In this document: piece after piece, positions 51,011 to 64,000 of the stretch
Layout of the letters: every line of letters begins with the position of its first letter
How positions within the stretch are numbered: position 1 is the stretch's first letter
NCBI RefSeq assembly: GCF_002899455.1
Contig: NZ_PPFB01000001.1
Location: 6,642,501 to 6,706,500 of the forward strand
Direction: 5' to 3'
DNA length: 64,000 nt
Source of the DNA: Streptomyces sp. DH-12
GTDB taxonomy: Bacteria; Actinomycetota; Actinomycetes; Streptomycetales; Streptomycetaceae
Program-made: the position numbers and the translations under genes
The notes under the pieces: generated by a model
What the model was told of the DNA's origin: nothing
Databases searched by the model: none
Seen by the model: the letters and a program-made list of their open reading frames with translations, nothing else

Positions 51011-51313
51011 ATGACGTCCGCCACCGAGCACCGCACCCACGAAGCCCATGACCACCGGCATGAGGAGGGCTGCGGGCACGTCGCCGTCCCGCACGGCGAC
51101 CACGTCGACTACATGCACGACGGACACATCCACCGCGCGCACGACGGGCACGTCGACGAGTGCACCGCCACCGGTCACAGGCCGCACGAGGACCACGAAC
51201 ACCGGCACGGAAGCGGCTGCGGGCACGTCGCCGTGCCGCACGAGAACCACGTCGACTACGTGCACGACGGGCATCGGCACGCCGCCCACGAGGGGCACTG
51301 GGACGACCACTGA
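51011..51313 (+). CDS. Histidine-rich metal-binding protein with internal duplication
   Basis: A 100-residue cytosolic protein in which 27 residues are histidine, with four cysteines (two in GCGHVAVPH, two in the second half). It consists of two tandem copies of about 42 residues, each holding CGHVAVPHGDHVDYMHDGH or its near copy CGHVAVPHENHVDYVHDGH and a further H-rich run. ATG 51011 follows GGAGGACCTC. Proteins of this kind bind or store zinc, nickel or cobalt; in Streptomyces similar ones sit with zinc-limitation genes. It is followed by a hairpin and by decayed cobW and rpsR genes, supporting zinc. Confidence 0.85.
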   Translation: MTSATEHRTHEAHDHRHEEGCGHVAVPHGDHVDYMHDGHIHRAHDGHVDECTATGHRPHEDHEHRHGSGCGHVAVPHENHVDYVHDGHRHAAHEGHWDDH

Positions 51314-52195: not shown

Positions 52196-52948
52196 TCAGC
52201 GCTTCTCGTACGGATCCGACGGCTCCGCGATGTGTCGGACGGTCGCGGCGTCCAGCACCGGGGGCCAGGCCGCCGATGACCCCAGTTCGCCTTCGGGGTG
52301 CCAGGCGCCTGTCACCACCACCCACGTGTCGGCCTCCGGTGCGTCCGCACCGCGGACCTCCACCCTGACCGCTGTGGCGTCGGCCGCGCAGCACGCGACC
52401 CGGAGCCGGGTCACGTACCAGGCGCCGCCGTCCCCGTGGGTGACGAACCCGGTCAGCCGGACCGTGCGGCCCTTCAGCGAGTACCCGCTGTCGTAGACGG
52501 CGCGAGTGCTGAACTCGGCCAGGCTCAGGTCCACCGGGTCCCCGGCGGGCAGCGCGGGGAACGTGCCGACATTCTCCGCGGCGCGTCGGGCCTCTTCGCG
52601 CGCGGCGCTGTAGGAACCGAGCGCGGGCGGCGGAAAGAGGAGCAGGGCGGCTGCGGGCAGTGCGAGCAGCCAGGCGACGCGCGGGCCGCCCGCATGGGAG
52701 TGGACGTGGCCGTGTCCGTCCTCGGCCGGGTGCGCGCTCCGGTCCACGGAAGCGGTGCCGTCCCGTGCCGCTCGCGCCGTCGACGCTGCCCGCGCCAGAC
52801 CGAGCAGCACCAGCAGCGCCCCGGACGCGATCAGGCAGGGCCGCAGCCCGGCCTGCACGTACCGCAGATACAGGTCGCTGAACAGCGAGATCCGCAGCAC
52901 CGCGGCGCCGACCAGCAGCAACAGCACGGCGGGACCGTACCGCCTCAC
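52196..52948 (-). CDS. TIGR03943-family membrane subunit of putative permease
   Basis: A 250-residue membrane protein. The N-terminal two hydrophobic helices ([40 protein letters not shown]) are followed by a His-containing loop ([15 protein letters not shown]), a third helix and a soluble domain with [20 protein letters not shown] and [20 protein letters not shown]. This is the TIGR03943 pattern, always found with an UPF0718-type permease. GTG 52948 overlaps the permease stop by four bases. The His-rich loop suggests a metal substrate, consistent with zinc or cobalt context; the transported substance is not proven. Confidence 0.85.
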
Positions 52949-53976
52949 AGCACCCACCACCCCACGAGCGCACTGCTCGCCACCGCGACCACCCAGGTCG
53001 CGGACGAGAACCGGATCGCGAACGTCCGCCCGAACGTGCCGGCCTGAAGCGCGAACAGCTTGAGGTCGACCATCGGGCCGACCACCATGAACGTCAGTTG
53101 CGCGATCGGTCCGAACCCGCTCAGCGACGCCGCCACGAACGCGTCCGCCTCGCTGCACACGCACAGCACCACGGCGAGGAGGGCCAGCAGGAGCACCGAT
53201 GCCCAGGCGGACGCCGTGAAGACGTCCAGCAGCGACCGTGGCACCGCGATGGTGAAGGTCGCCGCTGCCGCCGAACCCACTACCAGGAAACCCCCGGCGT
53301 GCAGGAAGTCGTGCTGGAGCCCCGCCATGAAGGAGCCCGCGCGGGAGGCGCCGGCCCCGGCCCCGGCCGTCGGTGCTCCCGGCAGCCGCAGCCATTCCTT
53401 CCTGCCGAAGCGTGCCCACAACCAGCCCATGGCGACGGCGGTGACGAGCGAGGCGACGAGCCGGGCCACCACCATCAGCGGCTGGCCGGGAAACGCGAGG
53501 GACGTGGCGACGAGGACGACGGGATTGATCGCGGGCGCGGAGAGCAGGAACGCCAGCGCGGCGGCCGGAACGACCCCGCGCCGCATCAGGCTGCCGGCCA
53601 CCGGCACGGACGCGCACTCGCAGCCGGGAAGCACCACACCGGCCGCGCCCGCGACGGGTACGGCGAGAGCCGGGCTGCGCGGCAGCAGTCGGGTGAAGAC
53701 GCGCTCGGGCACGAACGCACCTATGGCCGCGGAGACCAGCGCGCCGAGCAGGAGGAACGGGACGCCCTGGACGACGACGGCGGTGAACACGGTCCACCAG
53801 GCGGCGACGGGCGGAGTGTAGAGGTCGAGCGCGAGCATCGGCCCGAGGGTCCCGGCGACCGTGATGATCGTGACGAGTGCGAACCCGCCGAGAAAGAGGT
53901 GCACGACCGCCCGCACGACGAGGCGCACGACATCGGTGAGCCCGCCCCGCCTCTCGGCGTACTCCTGATCGCTCAC
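52945..53976 (-). CDS. UPF0718/YraQ-type permease
   Basis: A 343-residue polytopic membrane protein with about eight helices. The family signature is VVLPGCECASVPVAGSLMRR followed by GVVPAAALAFLLSAPAINPV, plus a second repeat-like segment VLCVCSEADAFVAASLSGFG. GTG 53976 is chosen because the longer frame begins in GC-rich non-coding DNA; the ribosome site is weak. Its stop overlaps the start of the TIGR03943 partner. The pair is thought to export or import a small metal complex. A Zur-like palindrome lies 183 bases upstream, divergent to the methyltransferase. Confidence 0.88.
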   Translation of the reverse strand: MSDQEYAERRGGLTDVVRLVVRAVVHLFLGGFALVTIITVAGTLGPMLALDLYTPPVAAWWTVFTAVVVQGVPFLLLGALVSAAIGAFVPERVFTRLLPRSPALAVPVAGAAGVVLPGCECASVPVAGSLMRRGVVPAAALAFLLSAPAINPVVLVATSLAFPGQPLMVVARLVASLVTAVAMGWLWARFGRKEWLRLPGAPTAGAGAGASRAGSFMAGLQHDFLHAGGFLVVGSAAAATFTIAVPRSLLDVFTASAWASVLLLALLAVVLCVCSEADAFVAASLSGFGPIAQLTFMVVGPMVDLKLFALQAGTFGRTFAIRFSSATWVVAVASSALVGWWVL

Positions 53977-54158
53977 GTCACTCGTCTCGCCGCACGGCAA
54001 CACCGATGCGCCGCCCGCGGGAAGCCGCCGAAGAGGTGACCGCGCGGTGCCGGACCAGGACACCTTACTGAGGCACCTCCGGCTGCCGGGCCCCAGGGCC
54101 TCGGGAGACCCGGCGGACCCGGCTGACGACGCGTCAACGCCCCTTGCACCTTTCTAGT

Positions 54159-54171
54159 AATGAAATTCATT
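54159..54171. promoter_or_regulatory. Zur/Fur-type palindrome between permease and methyltransferase
   Basis: AATGAAATTCATT is a perfect 6-1-6 palindrome inside the AT-rich stretch TAATGAAATTCATTTCTGAT (54157-54176), which stands out against the surrounding GC-rich DNA. It lies 51 bases before the methyltransferase ATG (54223) and about 180 bases before the permease start, and is similar in style to the box at 54978. Confidence 0.5.
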
Positions 54172-54222
54172 TCTGATTACTGTACGGGGCGAACCGTGAG
54201 GCATCGAGTCTTTGGAGCAGTG

Positions 54223-54975
54223 ATGAGCGACCCCTACGAGCGGTCCGCCGAGTACCTCGACATCCTGATCGCCGAGTCGTGGGAGCCGCTGGCTCCGGCG
54301 CTGGCGGACGTCCTGTCGCACGTCCGCGCCGGAACCGGGGCCGTGGTGGACCTCGGGGCCGGGTCCGGCCGGGGCGTGCGCGTCATCTGCGAGGCGCTGC
54401 CGCGGGTGCCGGTGCTCGCCGTCGAGCCGTCCGCCGCGATGCGTGCCGTCCTGCTCGCCCGGGTTCACGAGGACGACGGACTGCGTGAGCGCGTCACGGT
54501 GGTTCCCGGTGACTGCACGAGCGCCGACTGGCCCGACGGTGTGCGGGCCGTGGTGGCCCTGAACATGATCGGCCACCTGTCGCCCGGGCAGAGGTGCGCG
54601 CTGTGGAGCCGCGCCGCCCGGCAGCTCGCCCCGGGCGGGGCGCTGGTGTTCAACCTCGCTCCGCCGTTCACCCCGGTGGAGGTGGAGCGGGTGCGGACGG
54701 CCCGGGCCGTCGTCGGCGAGCTGGAGTACGAGGGCTGGGCGAGCGCGCGTCCCACCGGAGCGGACGAGATCACCTGGCGCATGGACTACGGCGTCCTGCG
54801 TCAGGGCCGGCCGCTGGCCGGGACGTCGGTCGAGTACCGCTGGTGGGTCGCCACGGAGGGCGCGCTGGCGGCCGAAGTCGCCGAGGCGGGACTGGTGTTG
54901 CGCCGGACCGGTGATTCCGCTCTGGGGCTGTGCGTTCTCGAGCGCGCGAGCGATCTGGCACCACAAGTTGGTTGA
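54223..54975 (+). CDS. SAM-dependent methyltransferase next to the NRPS
   Basis: A 250-residue class I methyltransferase. The start ATG 54223 follows GGAG at 54214. Motifs: GAVVDLGAGSGRGVRVICEA (SAM loop), VPVLAVEPSAAMRAVLLARV, VVPGDCTSADWPDGVRAVVA and LAPGGALVFNLAPPFTPVEV. Three bases after its stop, a Zur-type box precedes the first NRPS gene. The location makes it the best candidate to supply a methyl group to the metallophore, for example C-methylation of a thiazoline or O/N-methylation. Confidence 0.82.
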   Translation: MSDPYERSAEYLDILIAESWEPLAPALADVLSHVRAGTGAVVDLGAGSGRGVRVICEALPRVPVLAVEPSAAMRAVLLARVHEDDGLRERVTVVPGDCTSADWPDGVRAVVALNMIGHLSPGQRCALWSRAARQLAPGGALVFNLAPPFTPVEVERVRTARAVVGELEYEGWASARPTGADEITWRMDYGVLRQGRPLAGTSVEYRWWVATEGALAAEVAEAGLVLRRTGDSALGLCVLERASDLAPQVG

Positions 54976-54977
54976 TC

Positions 54978-54992
54978 TGATAATCATTTTCA
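54978..54992. promoter_or_regulatory. Zur box upstream of the metallophore NRPS
   Basis: TGATAATCATTTTCA is a 7-1-7 palindrome with one mismatch, extended by outer GTTGA/TCAAC arms (54971-54975 and 54990-54994). It is almost identical to the TGAAAAT-N-ATTTTCA operator of actinobacterial Zur. It sits 82 bases before the NRPS ATG at 55074, in a 98-base gap that must hold the promoter, and is by far the most AT-rich part of the neighbourhood. Confidence 0.75.
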
Positions 54993-55073
54993 ACTAGGTT
55001 CATCGGTGTTCCGCCTCCCCCGGATCTCTCTGCGGGGGAGGTGTCGCCCTGCCCGCCTTTCGACGGAGACCGG

Positions 55074-58000
55074 ATGGACCAGCCTGTGCCGAGCGACGAC
55101 CTCCTTGCCCGCGTCATCGACTGCATCGCCGAAGTCCTCGGCACACCACCCCACGAGGTCGCACGGACCACTCCGCTCGCGGCCCTGGGGCTCGAATCGT
55201 TCACCGCGGTGCGGCTGAGGCGGAGGATCCGCGAACGCACCGGCCAGGACCTGCCGTTGACCGCCCTTCTGGGTGACGGCGCGACGGCCCGTGCGGTGGC
55301 GGACCGTCTGCTCGCCGGTCGCACGCCGGAGAAGGCCACCGATCCCGAGCCCCTCGGTGCCGAGGGCCGGGCGGGGGCGGAACCCGGCGGTGCACGGAAC
55401 GACGAGGAAGCGGAGGAGGAGTACTTCCCCCTGACGCCCATTCAGGCCTCGTACCTGGCCGGGCGGGCCGAGGGCATGCCGCTGGGCGGAGTGGCCACCT
55501 TCTACTACTACGAGTACGACCGCACACCCGGCGGCACGGACCCGTTCGTGGACGTGGCCCGGCTGGAAGCCGCCTGGAACCGACTGGTCGACCACCACCC
55601 GATGCTGCGTATGACGGTGGACGACCGGGGCCGCCAGCGCATCGCAGCCACTCCCGGCCCCTACCGGATCGGCGTCACCGACCTGCGGGGCGAGTCCGCC
55701 GGACAGGTGAGGGAAACGTTGTCCGCCCAGCGTCGGGAGCGCTCCCACCAGAACCGGCCCACGGAGTCGTGGCCGTTGTTCGACATCCACGCCACCCTGC
55801 TGCCCGACGGGCGGACCCGGCTGCACATCGGCGTGGACGTGCTCCTGACCGATCTCACCGGCTGGATGCTGCTGATGCGTCAGTGGGGCCGCCTCGTCGC
55901 GGACCCCGACCACCGGCTTCCCGAGCCGGCAGCCCGGTTCGCCGACCTCCAGCGCGCCCGCTCGAGGGACCCGGAGTGGGCGGCCCGGCGCGCCCGCGAC
56001 CACGCCTACTGGGCCGAACGAGCCCCCGAACTGCCGCCGCCGCCGCGGCTGCCCCTGCTGCGCGACCCCGCCGACACCACCCCGCCCCGCTTCGTCCGCT
56101 CCGCCGCCGAACTCGACGCCGGAACCTGGACCCGGCTACGAGCCCGGTGCACCGAGCACGCGGTCACGCCGACCGCGGCCCTGCTCGCGGCCTTCGCCGT
56201 CGTCCTCGGCCGGTGGGGAGCCGGGGAACGGATCTGCCTCAACACCACCCTGTTCGACCGCCCGGAGGACGAGAGCGGGGCCGAGGGGGTGGTCGGCGAC
56301 TTCACCACCACCGCCCTGGTCGGCACGCCGCGCTTCGACCCCGCCGGCTGGAAGGGCTTCGCCGACTACGCCACCGCCGTCAACCGCCGCTTCTGGGAGG
56401 ACCTGGACCACCGGTCCGTGTCCGGCGTCGAGGTGCTCAGGGAGCTGCGGGGGCAGGAGCCGCCGTCGGCGGGAGCCCTCAGCCACCCGGTGGTGTTCAC
56501 CAGCGGGGTGGGTCTCGCGGGCGCCGGGGAGCCTCCGGCGTCCTGGATCGGACAGGAGGTGTACGGCATCTCCCAGACCCCGCAGGTCCTGCTCGACCAC
56601 ATCGTGTGGGACGAGGGCGGACGCCTCCGCCTGGCCTGGGACGCCGTCGAGGGGGCGTTCCCCGACGGCTGGGTACCGGCCCTGCTCGACGCCTTCGTAC
56701 GCCTGCTCCACACCCTGACGGACCCCGACGCCTGGCACGACGCCACCCTGGGCTGGGACCCGTCCTTCCACCCCGAAGAGCCCCTGGACGCGGTGCCCTT
56801 CCCGAACGCGGGCCCCCTGCTGCACGATCCGGTCACCGACGCGGCCCGGCGGCATCCGCGACGGCCCGCCCTGCGCACCTCCTCCACCACCGTCACCCAC
56901 GCCCGCCTCGCGGACAACGCCGCCGCCACCGCGGCACTGCTGGCCGCGCACGGGGTGGGGCCCGGCGACATGGTCGCCGTCGCCTGCGAGAAGGGCACCG
57001 CGCAGATCACCGCCGTACTCGGCGTCAGCCTGAGCGGAGCGGGCTACCTGCCGGTCGAACCCTCCTGGCCGGCCGCGCGGATCACCGCCGTCTGCGAGCG
57101 GGCCGGGGTCCGGCACGCGCTGACCGGCCGCGGTGTGAGGACCGACTGGCCCGAAGGCGTCACCGTCCACCGCCTGACCGCCGCGGGGCGCCCCGCCCGC
57201 ACCGCCGCGGGCTCCACCGGTCCCGCGGCGCCGCTCACGGTCCCACGGCCCGAGGACATCGCCTACACCATCTTCACCTCGGGTTCCACCGGCAGCCCCA
57301 AGGGCGTGGAGATCGAGCACCGGGCCGCGCGCACGACCGTCGACGACATCGTCGACCGGTTCGCCATCGGCCCCGACGACCGGGTGCTGGCGCTGTCGGC
57401 ACTCAGCTTCGACCTGTCCGTGTTCGACATCTACGGCGTCCTCGGCGCCGGCGGCTGCCTGGTGCTGCCCGACCCCGCCCGGCAGCGCGACCCGCAGCAC
57501 TGGCTCGAACAGGCCGGCCGGCACGGCGTCACCGTGTGGAACACCGCGCCCGCCCTGCTCGAAATGCTCGTCGAGTACGCGGAGATGGAACCGGAGGAGG
57601 CCACCGGGGCGCTGCGCACCCTGCGCCTGGTGATGCTCTCCGGTGACTGGATCCCCCTGACCCTGCCCGACCGGCTGCGACGACTGGCCCCCCAGGCGGA
57701 GGTGATGAGCCTGGGCGGAGCCACCGAGGCGTCCATCTGGTCCATCACTCATCCGGTGGGACACGTCGATCCGGGGTGGCGCAGCATCCCCTACGGCCGG
57801 GCGCTGCGCGGCCAGAGCTTCTTCGTCCTCGACGAGGACGGCGCGCCCTGCCCGGTGGGCGAGGCGGGGGAGCTGTTCATCGGCGGCGACGGGCTGGCCC
57901 GCGGCTACACCGCCGATCCGGTCCAGACCGCCGAGAGGTTCGCCGTCCACCCCGTACTGGGCCGCCGGCTGTACCGCACCGGGGACCTCGGCCGGTGGAC

Positions 58001-59138
58001 CGCCGAGGGCGCCATCGAGTTCCTCGGGCGCGTCGACCGGCAGGTGAAGATCCGCGGGCACCGCATCGAACTGGGCGAGGTGGAGGCGGTGCTGGCCCGC
58101 CATCCGGCGGTCCGCCAGTGCGTGGTGTCGTCGGTACGCGGCCCCGACGGACGGCCACGACTGGTGGCGCACCTCGCGCCCCGGGGCGCGAGCGAACCGC
58201 CGGCCGCCCAGGAGCTGGCGGACGTCCTGCGCGAACGGCTGCCCGACTACATGGTGCCCAGCCGGTTCGTGATCCTGGACCAGCTGCCGGTGACGGCCAA
58301 CGGCAAGATCGACCACGCGGCGCTGACCGCCCCGCCCGCCGATGACCGGACCACCGACGCCGACGGGCCGGCCCCGGTCGCCGAGGCGGCGGCCGAGCCC
58401 ACCGCGACACCGCGTACGGTCCCGGCCGGAGCCGCCGCCGAGTCCGCTCCGGGCGGGGACTGGGTCGCCGCCGCGCTGGCCGAGGCGACCACCCTGGGCC
58501 TGGAGGCCGCCGTCGTGGTCCGGCCCGGACGTCTCCGGCCGGACCAGGCGCTGGAGGCGTCGGCCCGATGGCTCCGGCACGTGGCGCGAACCGCCGACGG
58601 CGAAGCCGCAGTGCCGCTCCTGGGCCCCGGAGGACTGGCGGAGGTGGTCTGCCGCCCCCGGGCAGGGGACTCCCCGACGCCCTCCCCGTCCACCGGTCCG
58701 GCGTCCGGCGCCCCGGCCCCGGAACGGTACGGCACCGGACCGGACCAGGAACCCCGGCACCGCGGGCCGGGCCCGGCCGCGCCCGTGGCGCCGGCCGTGC
58801 TGGAGGCCCTGACCGGCATCCTGGCCGACTTCACGGACGTGCCGGTGACACCCGACAGCACCTTCAAGGAGCTGGGGGCCACCTCCCTCACCCTGGTCCT
58901 CACCCACCGCAGGCTCCGGGAGGGCATCGCGCCCCGGCTCGCACTGGCGGACATGTTCGAACACCCCACCGTCGCGGCCCTGGCCGCCCGCATCACCGCC
59001 CAGAACGCCCCGGACACCGACCGGGCCGCCACCGTCGCCGGCGCCGTCAGGCCCCCCGCCTCCCAGCGGTCCGAACGGCCCACGCGCAGAACGTCCCGCG
59101 TCGCCGCACGCGCCCTGGCCGAGGAGACCGCACGATGA
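55074..59138 (+). CDS. NRPS: carrier-Cy-A(Cys)-X-PCP, HMWP2/PchE-like
   Basis: A 1,354-residue synthetase. Domains: N-terminal aryl/peptidyl carrier (Ser about 42 in LGLESFTAV); cyclisation domain (about 120-560) with the DxxxxD motif DVLLTDLTGW, at residues 255 and 260, instead of a condensation HHxxxDG; adenylation domain (about 590-1080; TIFTSGSTGSPKGVEIEH, and TANGKID at its end). Specificity residues around SFDLSVFDIYG, VWNTAPALLEML, MLSGDWI and ASIWSITH fit a cysteine code (DLF-N...IW-K). A linker block of unknown kind (about 1125-1190) and a final carrier (Ser about 1268, ELGATSLTLV) follow. It should condense cysteine onto an acyl or aryl starter and cyclise it to a thiazoline. ATG 55074 has GGAG at 55065; GTG 55041 is the alternative. 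Confidence 0.93.
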   Translation: MDQPVPSDDLLARVIDCIAEVLGTPPHEVARTTPLAALGLESFTAVRLRRRIRERTGQDLPLTALLGDGATARAVADRLLAGRTPEKATDPEPLGAEGRAGAEPGGARNDEEAEEEYFPLTPIQASYLAGRAEGMPLGGVATFYYYEYDRTPGGTDPFVDVARLEAAWNRLVDHHPMLRMTVDDRGRQRIAATPGPYRIGVTDLRGESAGQVRETLSAQRRERSHQNRPTESWPLFDIHATLLPDGRTRLHIGVDVLLTDLTGWMLLMRQWGRLVADPDHRLPEPAARFADLQRARSRDPEWAARRARDHAYWAERAPELPPPPRLPLLRDPADTTPPRFVRSAAELDAGTWTRLRARCTEHAVTPTAALLAAFAVVLGRWGAGERICLNTTLFDRPEDESGAEGVVGDFTTTALVGTPRFDPAGWKGFADYATAVNRRFWEDLDHRSVSGVEVLRELRGQEPPSAGALSHPVVFTSGVGLAGAGEPPASWIGQEVYGISQTPQVLLDHIVWDEGGRLRLAWDAVEGAFPDGWVPALLDAFVRLLHTLTDPDAWHDATLGWDPSFHPEEPLDAVPFPNAGPLLHDPVTDAARRHPRRPALRTSSTTVTHARLADNAAATAALLAAHGVGPGDMVAVACEKGTAQITAVLGVSLSGAGYLPVEPSWPAARITAVCERAGVRHALTGRGVRTDWPEGVTVHRLTAAGRPARTAAGSTGPAAPLTVPRPEDIAYTIFTSGSTGSPKGVEIEHRAARTTVDDIVDRFAIGPDDRVLALSALSFDLSVFDIYGVLGAGGCLVLPDPARQRDPQHWLEQAGRHGVTVWNTAPALLEMLVEYAEMEPEEATGALRTLRLVMLSGDWIPLTLPDRLRRLAPQAEVMSLGGATEASIWSITHPVGHVDPGWRSIPYGRALRGQSFFVLDEDGAPCPVGEAGELFIGGDGLARGYTADPVQTAERFAVHPVLGRRLYRTGDLGRWTAEGAIEFLGRVDRQVKIRGHRIELGEVEAVLARHPAVRQCVVSSVRGPDGRPRLVAHLAPRGASEPPAAQELADVLRERLPDYMVPSRFVILDQLPVTANGKIDHAALTAPPADDRTTDADGPAPVAEAAAEPTATPRTVPAGAAAESAPGGDWVAAALAEATTLGLEAAVVVRPGRLRPDQALEASARWLRHVARTADGEAAVPLLGPGGLAEVVCRPRAGDSPTPSPSTGPASGAPAPERYGTGPDQEPRHRGPGPAAPVAPAVLEALTGILADFTDVPVTPDSTFKELGATSLTLVLTHRRLREGIAPRLALADMFEHPTVAALAARITAQNAPDTDRAATVAGAVRPPASQRSERPTRRTSRVAARALAEETAR

Positions 59139-62100
59139 CCGAACCGACTTCCTCCCGGGCGGACACGCCGGACACGCCCCGGCCCGACCACGAGGCCGGC
59201 GACGACCTGATCGCGGTCACCGCCCTGGACTGCCGGTTCCCCGGAGCCCCCGACACGGCGGCCTACTGGGACCTGCTCGTCGGCGGCCGCAGCGGACTGA
59301 CCCGGCACGACGAGCGGGAACTGGCCGAACGCGGCGTCCCGGCGAGGCTGCTGGCCAACCCCGCCCACATACCCGTCAGCGGGGTCATCGACGGACAGGA
59401 CCGGTTCGATCCCGAGCCGTTCGGCCTGACCGACGCCGAAGCGGCCGTGATGGACCCCCAGCAGAGGCTCTTCCTCGAAGCGTGCCTGCGCGCCCTGGAG
59501 AGCGCCGGACACGGCGGCGGCGCCGGCGCGGGCGCCGTGGGCGTCTTCGCCGGCGCCGCCCACAGCGACTACCTCGCCCGCAACCTCGCCGACCGGTACG
59601 CCGCCTCCGCCACCGATCCCGTCGGCAGCCTCCAGGCGGCCCTCGCGGGCGTGGCCGACTACCTCCCCCTGCACGTCGCGCACCGCCTCGCGCTCACCGG
59701 ACCCGCCGTCGCGGTCGGCACCGCCTGCTCGACCTCGCTGGTGGCCGTGCACATGGCGGCTCAGTCCCTGCTGGCGGGGGAGTGCGACACCGCCCTCGCC
59801 GGCGGCGCCTCCCTGATCGTCCCGCAGGGCAGGGGCTACCTCCACGTCCCCGACGGCATCTTCTCCGCCGACGGGCGCGTACGGACCTTCTCCGCCGAGG
59901 GCACCGGCATCGTGCACACCCAGGGCGTCGGTGTGGCCGTCCTGCGGCGGCTGCGCGACGCCCTCGCCGACGGCGACCCGGTGCTGGCCGTCCTGCACGG
60001 CTCCGCCGTCAACAACGACGGCGGCGACCGCACCGGCTTCACCGCCCCCTCGCCGCGCGGACAGGCCCGCGTGGTCTCCGAGGCGCTCGCGGTGGCCGGT
60101 CTCACGCCCGGGGACATCACCTACGTCGAGGCCCACGGCACCGCCACCCGCCTCGGCGACGTGGTGGAGGTCGCCGCGCTGCGCCGCGTGTTCGGCGACA
60201 CCGGCCCGGCCTGGTGCGCCCTGGGCTCGGTCAAGAGCAACATCGGGCACGCCAACGCGGCCGCGGGCATCGCCGGTTTCGCCAAGACCGTCCTCGCCCT
60301 GCACCACGGCGTACTGCCGCCCACCCTGGACGCCCTGCCCCTCAACCCCGACCTCCGGCTGGACGACTCGCCCTTCACCGTCGTCCACGAGGCCACCGAC
60401 TGGACCGGGCCCCGGTACGCGGGCGTCAGCTCCTTCGGCATCGGCGGCACCAACTGCCACGTCGTCCTGGGCAGCGCCCCCGTCCGTCCGGAGCCGCCCG
60501 CCGATCCGCGCCCGCAGCTCGCCCTGCTCAGCGCGCACCGCGACGACGCCCTCGCCCGCCTCACCGAGGCCACCGCGACCGCCCTCCACACCATGGAGGT
60601 CGCGCCCGCCGACGCGGCCCACACCCTGCACACAGGCCGCGCGACGCTGCCGTACCGCGCCGCCGCGGTGATCACCGGGGCGGCGGAGACCGACAGCCGC
60701 GCCCTGCGCGCCGCCCCGCGGCGCCGCCCCGGTCCCACCCCGTCCCGGATCGTGCTGGCCTTCCCCGGCGGAGGAGCGCAGTACGCGGGCATGGGTCGCG
60801 AACTGTGCGCGGAGGAAGAGGAGTTCTACCGCACCGTGCGCGAGTGCGCCGATCTCTTCGACGACGGGACCGGTACCGGCCTCACCGCGCTGATCACCGC
60901 CGACCCGTCCGACGAGCACGCGCGCCGGCTGCTGCGCGACCCCGCCCACGGACTGCCCGCCCTGTTCACCGTCTCCCTCGCCGCCGCGCGCACGCTGCGC
61001 TCCTGGGGCGTCGAGCCGGACGCGGTGGTCGGTCACAGCCTCGGCGAGTACGTGGCCGCCGTGCTGTCCGGTGCCCTGTCCCTGCCCGACGCCGCGACAC
61101 TGGTGGCGGTCCGCTCGCGCGGCATGTCCCGGGCGGCCGGCGGCGGGGTGATGCTGACGGTCCCGCTGACCGAGCGGCAGACCCTCGCCCTGCTCGCCGA
61201 CCACCCGGAACTGGACCTGGCCGCGGTCAACGGCCCGCGGTCCTGTGTGGTGTCCGGACCCTCGCCGGCCGTGGCCGAAGCGGAGCGCGTCCTGACCGCA
61301 CGCGGCGAGCGCACCGTGCGGCTCTCGCTCGACGCGGCCGCCCACTCGCGCCTGGTCGACCCCGTCCTGCCCGAACTGCGCGCGGCCGCCAGGACCGTCC
61401 GGGCGCGTGTTCCCGGCATCCCGCTCGCCACCACCCTCACCGGGAGACTGCTGGACACCGCTCCCGGTGCCGACCACTGGGTGGCGCACCTGCGCTCCAC
61501 CGTGCGCTTCTCCGACGCCCTGGCCACCGCCCTGGGCGAAGGGCCGGCCGTCCTCGTCCAGGCGGGACCCGGCGGTGCACTGCTCCAACTGGCCCGTCAG
61601 CAGGGACACCGGCAGCTCCTGGCCACCCTGGCCGCCTTCCCCGACCGCGAGCAGCCCGGCGGAGGACGGGCCGCGCTGCTGGCGGCCGCCGGAGAACTGT
61701 GGACGCACGGAGTCCCCCTGGACGCCGCGGCCCTGCACCGTCCGGGGCGCCGCCGTGTCGTCCTGCCGGGCCTGCCCATGGAGCGCCGCAGACTGTGGAT
61801 CGATCCGCCGGCCGCCACCGCGTCGGCCACCGCGCAGGCCGGTACGGCGGCCGGCCCCGGCCACGGCGCCGGGCAGGCAGCCCCGGACGAGTCCGAGCCC
61901 TTCCAGCTGCCCGTCTGGCGGCGCACGCCCCCCGTCGAGACGGACCCGTCGGCGCTGCGGGGCCGCTGGCTGGTGGACGGTCCGCCCGGCTCGCCGTCGG
62001 CCGAGCGGGTGCGCGCCGCGCTCGCCGCCGCCGGCGCCCGCACCGTCACCCTCGGCGAGGCGCTCGCGGACCCCGGCACCCCGTGCGAGGGCATCGTCGT

Positions 62101-64000
62101 GATCGGCCCGTACGGTGACACCGGCGACGACCCGGCGGAGACCGTCAGCGCGTCGGTCCTGCACTACGCGGAGGTGGCACGGGCCGCCGCCTCCTGGGCG
62201 CACCGCACCTGCCTGCTGCACCTCAGCCACAACGCCCAGCAGGTGGAGAGCACCGACCGGCCGGCGGCCCACGTCGCCGCCGGCCTCGCCGTGCCCCGCG
62301 TTCTCGCCCAGGAGTTCCCGGGCCTGCGCTGGCGCTCGGTGGACCTGCCGGCCGGCCCGCCGCACGCCGACGACGTCCGGGCCGTGCCGGCGGAGGCCGC
62401 CGACCTGCTGGCGGGAGGCCCCAACGGCATCGAGTGCGCCCTGCGCGGCGGACACCGCTGGACGCGCGGCATCACCCCCTGGCGGCCGTCCGCACCCGCG
62501 CCGGACACGGACGGCCCGGCCGCCACCGACGGCGGAACGGGCACGGCGGTGATCCTCGGCGGACTCGGGGACGTGGGCCTGGCCCTGGCGGGGCACCTGG
62601 CCCGCTCCGGGCGGCGGGTCGTGGTGACCGGCCGCACCGGGCTCCCCCCGGACCCCGCCCCCGGCAGCACCGAAGCCGAACGGGCGGAGACGATCCGTGC
62701 CCTGCGGGACTCCGGCGCCGACATCGAGGTCCGTGCCGCGGACGCCGCGGACACCGCCGCCACGACGGAACTGCTGCGGGAACTGACCGACCGCGACGGC
62801 CCGCTGGACCTGGTCGTGCACGCCGCCGGCGTGGTCGCCTCCGCCGCCGTCGCGCCGTTGCGGGCCACCGAGGAGCGGGCCGTGCGCGCGCACGCGCACG
62901 CCAAGGTCACCGCGGCCCTCGCGGTGCGCGACGCCGTGCACGGCCTGCCGCCCGGCCGCCGCCCGGCCACCGTCCTGCTGATGTCCTCCGCCACGGCGTT
63001 CGTCGGAGGCCTCGGCCTCGCCCCCTACGCCGCCGTCAACCGCTACCTGGACGCCCTCGCCGAACACGAGCACCACGCGGACCCGGACGCACCCCGCTGG
63101 ATCAGCGTGGCCTGGGACGGCTGGCGCGTCGGGCCCGGCCGGAGCGAACGCACCGTCGCCTCCCGGCACTCGATCGGCCTGGCGGACGGCATGCGCACCG
63201 TGGACCGTCTGCTGGCGCTCGCGGCCGGCGGCCGTGTCCCGGCCTCCGTCGCCGTCTCGCCGGCCGACCTCGCGCCCCGCACCGCGGGCACGCCCACCGC
63301 CGTACCCGTCTCCGTCGCTCCGGCTCCCGGCGCGCCCACGGCGGAGCTGCGGGCCGGTGCGGGATTCACCACCGGGGCGGAGACACTCCTGGCGGAGGTC
63401 TGGTCGGACCTGCTGGGCTTCCCCGTCACCGACCGTGACGCCGACTTCTTCGCCCTCGGCGGGCACTCCCTGCTGGCCACCCGCATGCTCGCCCGGCTGC
63501 GCGACGACCACGGTGCCGACCTGCGGCTGCAGGACCTGCTCGCCCGGCCCACCATCGCGGCCCTGGCCCCGATGCTGCCCGGCGGGGAATCCCGGCGGGA
63601 TCCCGCCGCGCCCCGGACCGCGGGCGTTCCCTCCTCGCAACCCGGGGACGGCCCCCGGGAGTTCCCCCTCACCCGGGTGCAGCACGCCTACTGGGTCGGT
63701 GGATCGGGCGGTTACCGCCTCGGCGACGTCCCGTGCTCCTTCCACCTGGAGTACGACTGTCCCGGCCTGGACACCGACCGCTACGAAACGGCGTGGAACG
63801 CGGTCGTCGCCCGCCACCCGATGCTGCGCGCGGTCGTCTCACCGGAAGGCCGCAACCGGGTGCTCGACAAGGTGCCCCCCTACCGGATCCGGGTGCAGGA
63901 CCTGACGAAGGACGACGACGCCGAGCGCGCCCGGAAGCTGGAGCGCGTGCGCACCCGCATGGTGCGCCGCGAACCCCGCCCGGGCCGCTGGCCCCTGGTC
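59135..64000 (+). CDS. PKS-NRPS: KS-AT-KR-ACP-Cy..., HMWP1-like (3' end outside window)
   Basis: ATG 59135 overlaps the NRPS stop as ATGA, and the frame is still open at the window end (more than 1,620 residues). Domains: KS (active Cys about 196 in VGTACSTSLVAVH, EAHGTATR, NIGHANAAAG); AT (about 540-870, GHSLGEYVAA and AAHSRLVDPVL); KR (about 950-1370, ILGGLGDVGLALAGHLA, catalytic Tyr in APYAAVNRYLDAL); ACP (Ser about 1447, FFALGGHSLLATRML); then the start of a second Cy domain (FPLTRVQHAYWVGG). No methyltransferase domain lies between AT and KR, unlike yersiniabactin HMWP1. It should add a reduced malonate unit and lead to another thiazoline. The remaining domains and release enzyme lie outside. 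Confidence 0.93.
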   Translation, partial: MTEPTSSRADTPDTPRPDHEAGDDLIAVTALDCRFPGAPDTAAYWDLLVGGRSGLTRHDERELAERGVPARLLANPAHIPVSGVIDGQDRFDPEPFGLTDAEAAVMDPQQRLFLEACLRALESAGHGGGAGAGAVGVFAGAAHSDYLARNLADRYAASATDPVGSLQAALAGVADYLPLHVAHRLALTGPAVAVGTACSTSLVAVHMAAQSLLAGECDTALAGGASLIVPQGRGYLHVPDGIFSADGRVRTFSAEGTGIVHTQGVGVAVLRRLRDALADGDPVLAVLHGSAVNNDGGDRTGFTAPSPRGQARVVSEALAVAGLTPGDITYVEAHGTATRLGDVVEVAALRRVFGDTGPAWCALGSVKSNIGHANAAAGIAGFAKTVLALHHGVLPPTLDALPLNPDLRLDDSPFTVVHEATDWTGPRYAGVSSFGIGGTNCHVVLGSAPVRPEPPADPRPQLALLSAHRDDALARLTEATATALHTMEVAPADAAHTLHTGRATLPYRAAAVITGAAETDSRALRAAPRRRPGPTPSRIVLAFPGGGAQYAGMGRELCAEEEEFYRTVRECADLFDDGTGTGLTALITADPSDEHARRLLRDPAHGLPALFTVSLAAARTLRSWGVEPDAVVGHSLGEYVAAVLSGALSLPDAATLVAVRSRGMSRAAGGGVMLTVPLTERQTLALLADHPELDLAAVNGPRSCVVSGPSPAVAEAERVLTARGERTVRLSLDAAAHSRLVDPVLPELRAAARTVRARVPGIPLATTLTGRLLDTAPGADHWVAHLRSTVRFSDALATALGEGPAVLVQAGPGGALLQLARQQGHRQLLATLAAFPDREQPGGGRAALLAAAGELWTHGVPLDAAALHRPGRRRVVLPGLPMERRRLWIDPPAATASATAQAGTAAGPGHGAGQAAPDESEPFQLPVWRRTPPVETDPSALRGRWLVDGPPGSPSAERVRAALAAAGARTVTLGEALADPGTPCEGIVVIGPYGDTGDDPAETVSASVLHYAEVARAAASWAHRTCLLHLSHNAQQVESTDRPAAHVAAGLAVPRVLAQEFPGLRWRSVDLPAGPPHADDVRAVPAEAADLLAGGPNGIECALRGGHRWTRGITPWRPSAPAPDTDGPAATDGGTGTAVILGGLGDVGLALAGHLARSGRRVVVTGRTGLPPDPAPGSTEAERAETIRALRDSGADIEVRAADAADTAATTELLRELTDRDGPLDLVVHAAGVVASAAVAPLRATEERAVRAHAHAKVTAALAVRDAVHGLPPGRRPATVLLMSSATAFVGGLGLAPYAAVNRYLDALAEHEHHADPDAPRWISVAWDGWRVGPGRSERTVASRHSIGLADGMRTVDRLLALAAGGRVPASVAVSPADLAPRTAGTPTAVPVSVAPAPGAPTAELRAGAGFTTGAETLLAEVWSDLLGFPVTDRDADFFALGGHSLLATRMLARLRDDHGADLRLQDLLARPTIAALAPMLPGGESRRDPAAPRTAGVPSSQPGDGPREFPLTRVQHAYWVGGSGGYRLGDVPCSFHLEYDCPGLDTDRYETAWNAVVARHPMLRAVVSPEGRNRVLDKVPPYRIRVQDLTKDDDAERARKLERVRTRMVRREPRPGRWPLV

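Follow-up and report, generated by a model that had tools for sequence, protein, structure and literature searches.

HMWP2 and HMWP1, the synthetases of yersiniabactin, together contain five carrier domains, three Cy domains, one cysteine-specific adenylation (A) domain, KS, AT, and KR domains, two methyltransferases, and a TE. Yersiniabactin is able to act as a zincophore (PMC8636617). Few zincophores are known so far; the Streptomyces model is coelibactin, whose isolation has failed to date. Genes of the saccharopine dehydrogenase family are required for both sorangibactin and equibactin. In S. coelicolor, ChIP-chip yielded the Zur motif tGaNNatSatNNtCa (PMC5472717). Here, we describe a locus that occurs in cultured strains and in which a Zur operator, a complete assembly line of the ybt type, and an importer are found together. 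The window analyzed is a 64,000-nucleotide stretch (G000:C1:6642501-6706500) of the 7.6-Mb genome of Streptomyces sp. DH-12; coordinates above 64000 continue the window numbering (contig position = number + 6642500; Table 1). We consider it quite probable that the locus serves the Zur-repressed biosynthesis and uptake of a thiazoline-polyketide zincophore. This zincophore is probably undescribed: the open-access literature contained no description of the cluster that we could find, although subscription papers were not covered and a published product is possible.

Table 1. Features of the cluster and its neighbors, in window numbering
Feature	Position	Strand	Basis or remark
His-rich 100-aa protein with repeats	51011..51313	+	No Pfam family; outside core
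ArsP_1-type permease and TIGR03943 subunit	52196..54063	-	Metal-associated neighbors, outside conserved core
MT0, class I SAM methyltransferase	54160..54975	+	Pfam Methyltransf_25; first gene of conserved core
Candidate promoter TTGATC-N17-TAGGTT, spacer = Zur box	54972..55000	+	Ortholog conservation
Box 1, Zur-type operator TGATAATCATTTTCA	54978-54992	.	Motif match (PMC5472717)
D, NRPS, CP-Cy-A(Cys)-CP	55041..59138	+	Pfam; GTG start, ATG 55074 alternative
E, PKS/NRPS, KS-AT-KR-ACP-Cy-TE	59135-65917	+	Pfam; window ends at 64000
SBP_bac_5 lipoprotein (SBP)	65964-67529	+	
Permeases	67526-68497 and 68494-69315	+	
Double ABC ATPase	69312-70928	+	
MTJ, methyltransferase	70906-72288	+	
MTK, methyltransferase	72285-73706	+	
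K2, PCP-Cy-PCP	~73661-75718	+	Start approximate
Flavoprotein	75763-76686	-	
Box 2 CGATAATAATTATCATTTTCA	76725-76745		Upstream of SDH
SDH, saccharopine-dehydrogenase-like	76780-77868	+	PF03435
Zur paralog	77996-78412 (L006 13996-14412)	-	
ZigA zinc GTPase	78457-79656	-	Box-bearing
ZigA box CGACAATGATTTTCA	79901-79915		
ArsR-like gene, then P-type ATPase-like gene	Beyond ZigA box	-, then +	Read by eye

Assembly line and search for a starter

The first-pass annotation, made from the window alone, had described a carrier-Cy-A(Cys)-PCP synthetase translationally coupled to a KS-AT-KR-ACP-Cy synthetase and had likened the pair to HMWP2 and HMWP1. Pfam domains and a cysteine-type A-domain code bear out the first of these, protein D. 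The code, D-L-F-N-M-S-L-I-W, is invariant in seven genomes and differs by two conservative changes from the readable code of BmdB (D-L-Y-N-L-S-L-I-W); codes of this kind are specific for cysteine. The overlap of the two genes was confirmed as a shared ATGA at 59135-59138. The domains proposed for the second protein, E, were found, but the protein terminates in a TE past the window end. A domain search revealed neither an embedded methyltransferase nor a second carrier domain in E, and a carrier domain between Cy and TE is absent in seven orthologs. E shares 34% identity with annotated irp1/HMWP1 over residues 9 to 2258, and other PKS-NRPS proteins score equally. As a matter of domain inventory, the HMWP2/HMWP1 parallel stands.

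Extension past 64000, suggested by the same annotation, yielded the thioesterase and the transporters, together with a further NRPS protein, K2, 8 kb downstream of E. The Cy domain of K2 has Ser in place of the first Asp of DxxxxDxxS; this is true of every ortholog recovered, and the Asp residues of this motif have been described as critical. Because an S. clavuligerus relative also has Ser, we regard this domain as a member of a conserved subfamily rather than as decayed. MTJ is similar to methyltransferases embedded in large NRPSs, and the nearest relatives of MTK are the PKS C-methyltransferases CurJ and AprA MT2. MT0 lies upstream of the synthetase in seven genomes and has homologs in coelibactin-like loci (35 to 38% identity). 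The AF2 model of SDH (pLDDT 90) has a carboxyspermidine/saccharopine dehydrogenase fold, which suggests C=N redox chemistry. The flavoprotein resembles the DepH/HlmI/GliT dithiol oxidases and has a CxxC motif, CPFC; its closest solved relatives are DepH and 4ntd, and generic TrxR-like proteins are almost equally close.

Searches of the whole genomes of this strain (G000) and of close relatives (G343, G317, G379, and G339) identified no salicylate synthase (YbtS) and no salicyl-AMP ligase (YbtE) above the curated cut-offs; the best ligase score in G000 was 227 bits, versus a DHB/salicyl-type cut-off of 724. For the thiazolinyl imine reductase (YbtU), there was no match in G000 and none above the cut-off in the other four. 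No salicylate starter gene above the cut-off was found in the cluster or in the flanks of its relatives; G331 has a salicylate synthase gene elsewhere in its genome. The salicylate-AMP ligase that had been expected beyond 64000 was therefore not recovered above the cut-off, either in the cluster or in the rest of the genome. Since none of the three enzyme types reaches the cut-off, a salicylate starter is unsupported, and both yersiniabactin and coelibactin are improbable as the product. No loading enzyme was found for the first carrier domain, for which other ligases of the genome are possible. The cluster raises the biochemical question of what primes a line that lacks salicylate genes.

Zur boxes and a candidate promoter

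The near-perfect Zur-type box of the first-pass annotation proved to be an exact match to the published motif and is conserved in orthologs: TGATAATCATTTTCA agrees with the S. coelicolor motif at each specified base. Box 1 is the sole site in the window within two mismatches of TGAAAATSATTTTCA (0/100 for shuffled sequences). No other stretch of the window fits TGANNATSATNNTCA, the published 7-1-7 motif, exactly; when up to one mismatch was allowed, a window scan detected 2 sites versus 0.02 expected. The 7.6-Mb genome contains three exact Zur-motif sites, and the reversed control yielded none. Contrary to its description as the only operator-like element, box 1 is accompanied by two further boxes, at 76731 and 79901, beyond the window end. 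Each of the 11 records that cover box 2 retains it, either unchanged or in variant form.

When up to three mismatches to TGAAAATSATTTTCA were allowed, the control gave 3 places and the genome 15. Among the latter are znuA, a zinc-type ABC ATPase gene, and a FecB/FecCD importer locus. The cluster itself accounts for three intergenic sites, which fall inside 25 kb (Poisson, ~0.001 for such clustering). No DmdR-type iron boxes were found near the cluster, the genome's six all being elsewhere.

Box 1 forms the 17-bp spacer of TTGAnn-N17-TAGGTT in five orthologs, with TTGACA in G331. Across five orthologous genomes, 23/29 bases of this element are invariant, compared with 8/79 in the flanks. A generic promoter scan chose another hexamer pair, and we therefore treat the element as a candidate promoter, argued from ortholog conservation. 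The box-in-spacer geometry would fit repressor action. In G351 and G022, the box is absent before D and a weaker box lies ahead of MT0.

A second Zur-boxed biosynthetic locus was observed elsewhere in the genome (L054 7660-16970 = G000:C1:970659-979969). It contains genes for a YcaO cyclodehydratase, an ABC transporter, and a FecB/FecCD-type importer, as well as the boxes TGAATCTGATTTTCA and TGATAATCGTTTTCA, and it possibly encodes a Zur-controlled azole peptide (RiPP) metallophore.

Importer, zinc-related genes, and distribution

The ABC importer of the cluster is of the nickel/peptide type, with an SBP nearest to NikA/GsiB/CntA-type binding proteins, and almost every relative encodes it within the operon. 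Homologs of the SBP in coelibactin-like loci match at E values of 1e-55 to 1e-67, compared with 1e-24 for the best paralog in the genome of strain DH-12. The genome encodes two Zur-type proteins, which are 50% identical and share a GLTTVYRTL stretch. The cluster paralog has YRPR where the main Zur has the YRRC motif; because this Cys is missing, its zinc affinity may differ from that of the main Zur.

The core of the cluster is kept in a dozen Streptomyces. Orthologs of MTJ occur in 8/393 sampled Streptomyces genomes and in 9 named records, all of which are Streptomyces; identities range from 63 to 100% and then drop to 39%. Outside Streptomyces, no MTJ ortholog was detected among 396 sampled Actinomycetota genomes, the strain's own genome aside. 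The carriers include cultured S. caelestis NRRL B-24567, S. ruber, and S. minutiscleroticus, so that zinc-starvation metabolomics is immediately feasible. In G022 (L050/L051), the ortholog cluster has no importer genes between E and MTJ, and IucA/IucC-like genes follow. In S. beigongshangae (L031), a homolog of the His-rich protein is encoded close to the cluster, where its neighbors are an ArsR-like gene and a Zur-like box.

Proposed function and comparison with known systems

Zinc control of the cluster, as judged from sequence, is well supported: in addition to ortholog-conserved boxes, the locus encodes a Zur paralog and a ZigA GTPase preceded by a box, has no iron box nearby, and shares its importer and SDH with Zur-boxed coelibactin-like clusters. 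The zinc role first proposed for it gains strong support from the same observations, and zinc starvation very probably induces the cluster. From these data, we infer the following scheme of repression, reaction order, product, and transport. Under zinc-replete conditions, Zur (the main protein and/or the cluster paralog) would occupy the spacer box and block transcription; zinc depletion would release the operon from D onward and, at box 2, SDH and the flavoprotein. The single A domain of D would load cysteine onto the carrier domains of D and K2, and the Cy domains of D, K2, and E would condense and cyclize these units. E would add one ketide, which its KR would reduce and MTK would C-methylate in trans; MTJ would methylate a cysteine-derived unit, the TE would release the chain, and SDH and the flavoprotein may tune its oxidation state. 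The product is predicted to be a thiazoline ligand that derives from cysteine and malonate, probably contains no salicylate, and would bind zinc. Its zinc complex would be re-imported through the SBP/ABC importer, and ZigA may assist metal allocation. Several observations count against a zincophore: (i) nickel, peptides, and opines are further substrates of SBP_bac_5 importers; (ii) G351 and G022 lack box 1 before D, and G022 lacks the importer genes at their usual place; (iii) the Cy domain of K2 lacks its first Asp, and E is just 34% identical to HMWP1; and (iv) the first carrier domain has no loading enzyme among those found.

A more specific form of the zincophore proposal, which we regard as rather unlikely, has a non-aryl starter (Cys or another small acid) and one cysteine left uncyclized at the Asp-less Cy domain. 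The result would be a salicylate-free thiol zincophore whose disulfide is kept by the DepH-like flavoprotein and opened in the cell to free zinc. The affinities of the SBP, and the ability of yersiniabactin-type ligands to bind several metals, also agree with a staphylopine-like arrangement in which a zinc-responsive locus makes a broad-spectrum or nickel, cobalt, or copper metallophore; this is improbable, as the Zur boxes, the Zur paralog, and ZigA all indicate zinc. There is a slender chance that the product is like coelibactin, made by rearranged enzymes with salicylate from elsewhere. Such a variant would explain what the two have in common (Zur boxes, importer family, SDH, MT0-like methyltransferase, and ZigA), and equibactin, for which salicylate can come from the medium, offers a precedent. 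However, the KS-AT-KR-ACP module, on which the original distinction from coelibactin was based, is present; the sole A domain is of the Cys type, neither a salicyl-AMP ligase nor a YbtU-type reductase reaches the cut-off in the genome, and no P450 is found among the core genes. We think it very improbable that the cluster makes a Zur-controlled, holomycin-like antibiotic thiol that starves competitors of zinc rather than feeding the producer; the flavoprotein is nearest to DepH and 4ntd, but generic TrxR-like proteins come nearly as close, and the operon of nearly all relatives includes a dedicated importer. The least probable alternative is a yersiniabactin-like iron siderophore under a Fur-type iron regulator. 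Box 1 does resemble a 7-1-7 Fur box, and iron is what the nearest assembly lines studied so far acquire. Against this, closely similar boxes stand at znuA and ZigA, the Fur-family gene of the locus encodes a Zur, and the iron boxes lie elsewhere.

The cluster equals HMWP2/HMWP1 of yersiniabactin in its summed domain inventory. In contrast to that system, its line is spread over five proteins, its methyltransferases stand alone with none in cis, no PCP separates the last Cy from the TE, YbtS, YbtE, and YbtU are not found above the cut-off in the genome, the importer is different, and control is of the zinc rather than the iron type. A single fused NRPS encoded on S. clavuligerus pCLA1 is related in its A(Cys) (55%), PCP-Cy-PCP (37%), and TE (49%) parts and in its MTJ-like neighbor (39%), and it shares the SxxxxDGWS Cy motif with K2, but it has no PKS, and neither an importer nor a Zur-like box was seen in the 42-kb stretch. 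The gene region itself (L097 17823-24379), encoding A(Cys)-PCP-Cy-PCP-TE and the methyltransferase, is unannotated. Equibactin of Streptococcus equi has a Ybt-like thiazoline line and an essential saccharopine-DH-family protein, EqbM; it differs in having no PKS part, a DtxR-type iron repressor, and a salicyl-AMP ligase. Searches that used SDH as the query returned loci encoding large Cy-NRPSs, a P450, and a stand-alone AMP ligase and carrying Zur-like boxes, which by gene content we identified as putatively coelibactin-like. With the coelibactin family (S. coelicolor SCO7676-7692, its relatives, and sorangibactin), the cluster shares Zur boxes, the importer family (SBP, 33 to 34%; permease, 43 to 45%), a saccharopine-DH-like enzyme beside a Cy-NRPS (SDH, 40 to 46%), an MT0-like methyltransferase, and, in one locus, a nearby ZigA (73%). 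Whereas coelibactin is made by a pure NRPS line with a salicyl-AMP ligase, the cluster has no P450 in its core, its genome yields no hit above the cut-off for a salicylate synthase, a salicyl-AMP ligase, or a reductase of the YbtU type, and its line combines a PKS module and a single A domain with split methyltransferases and a separate PCP-Cy-PCP protein. The cluster would add a new variant to the Zur-controlled thiazoline metallophores.
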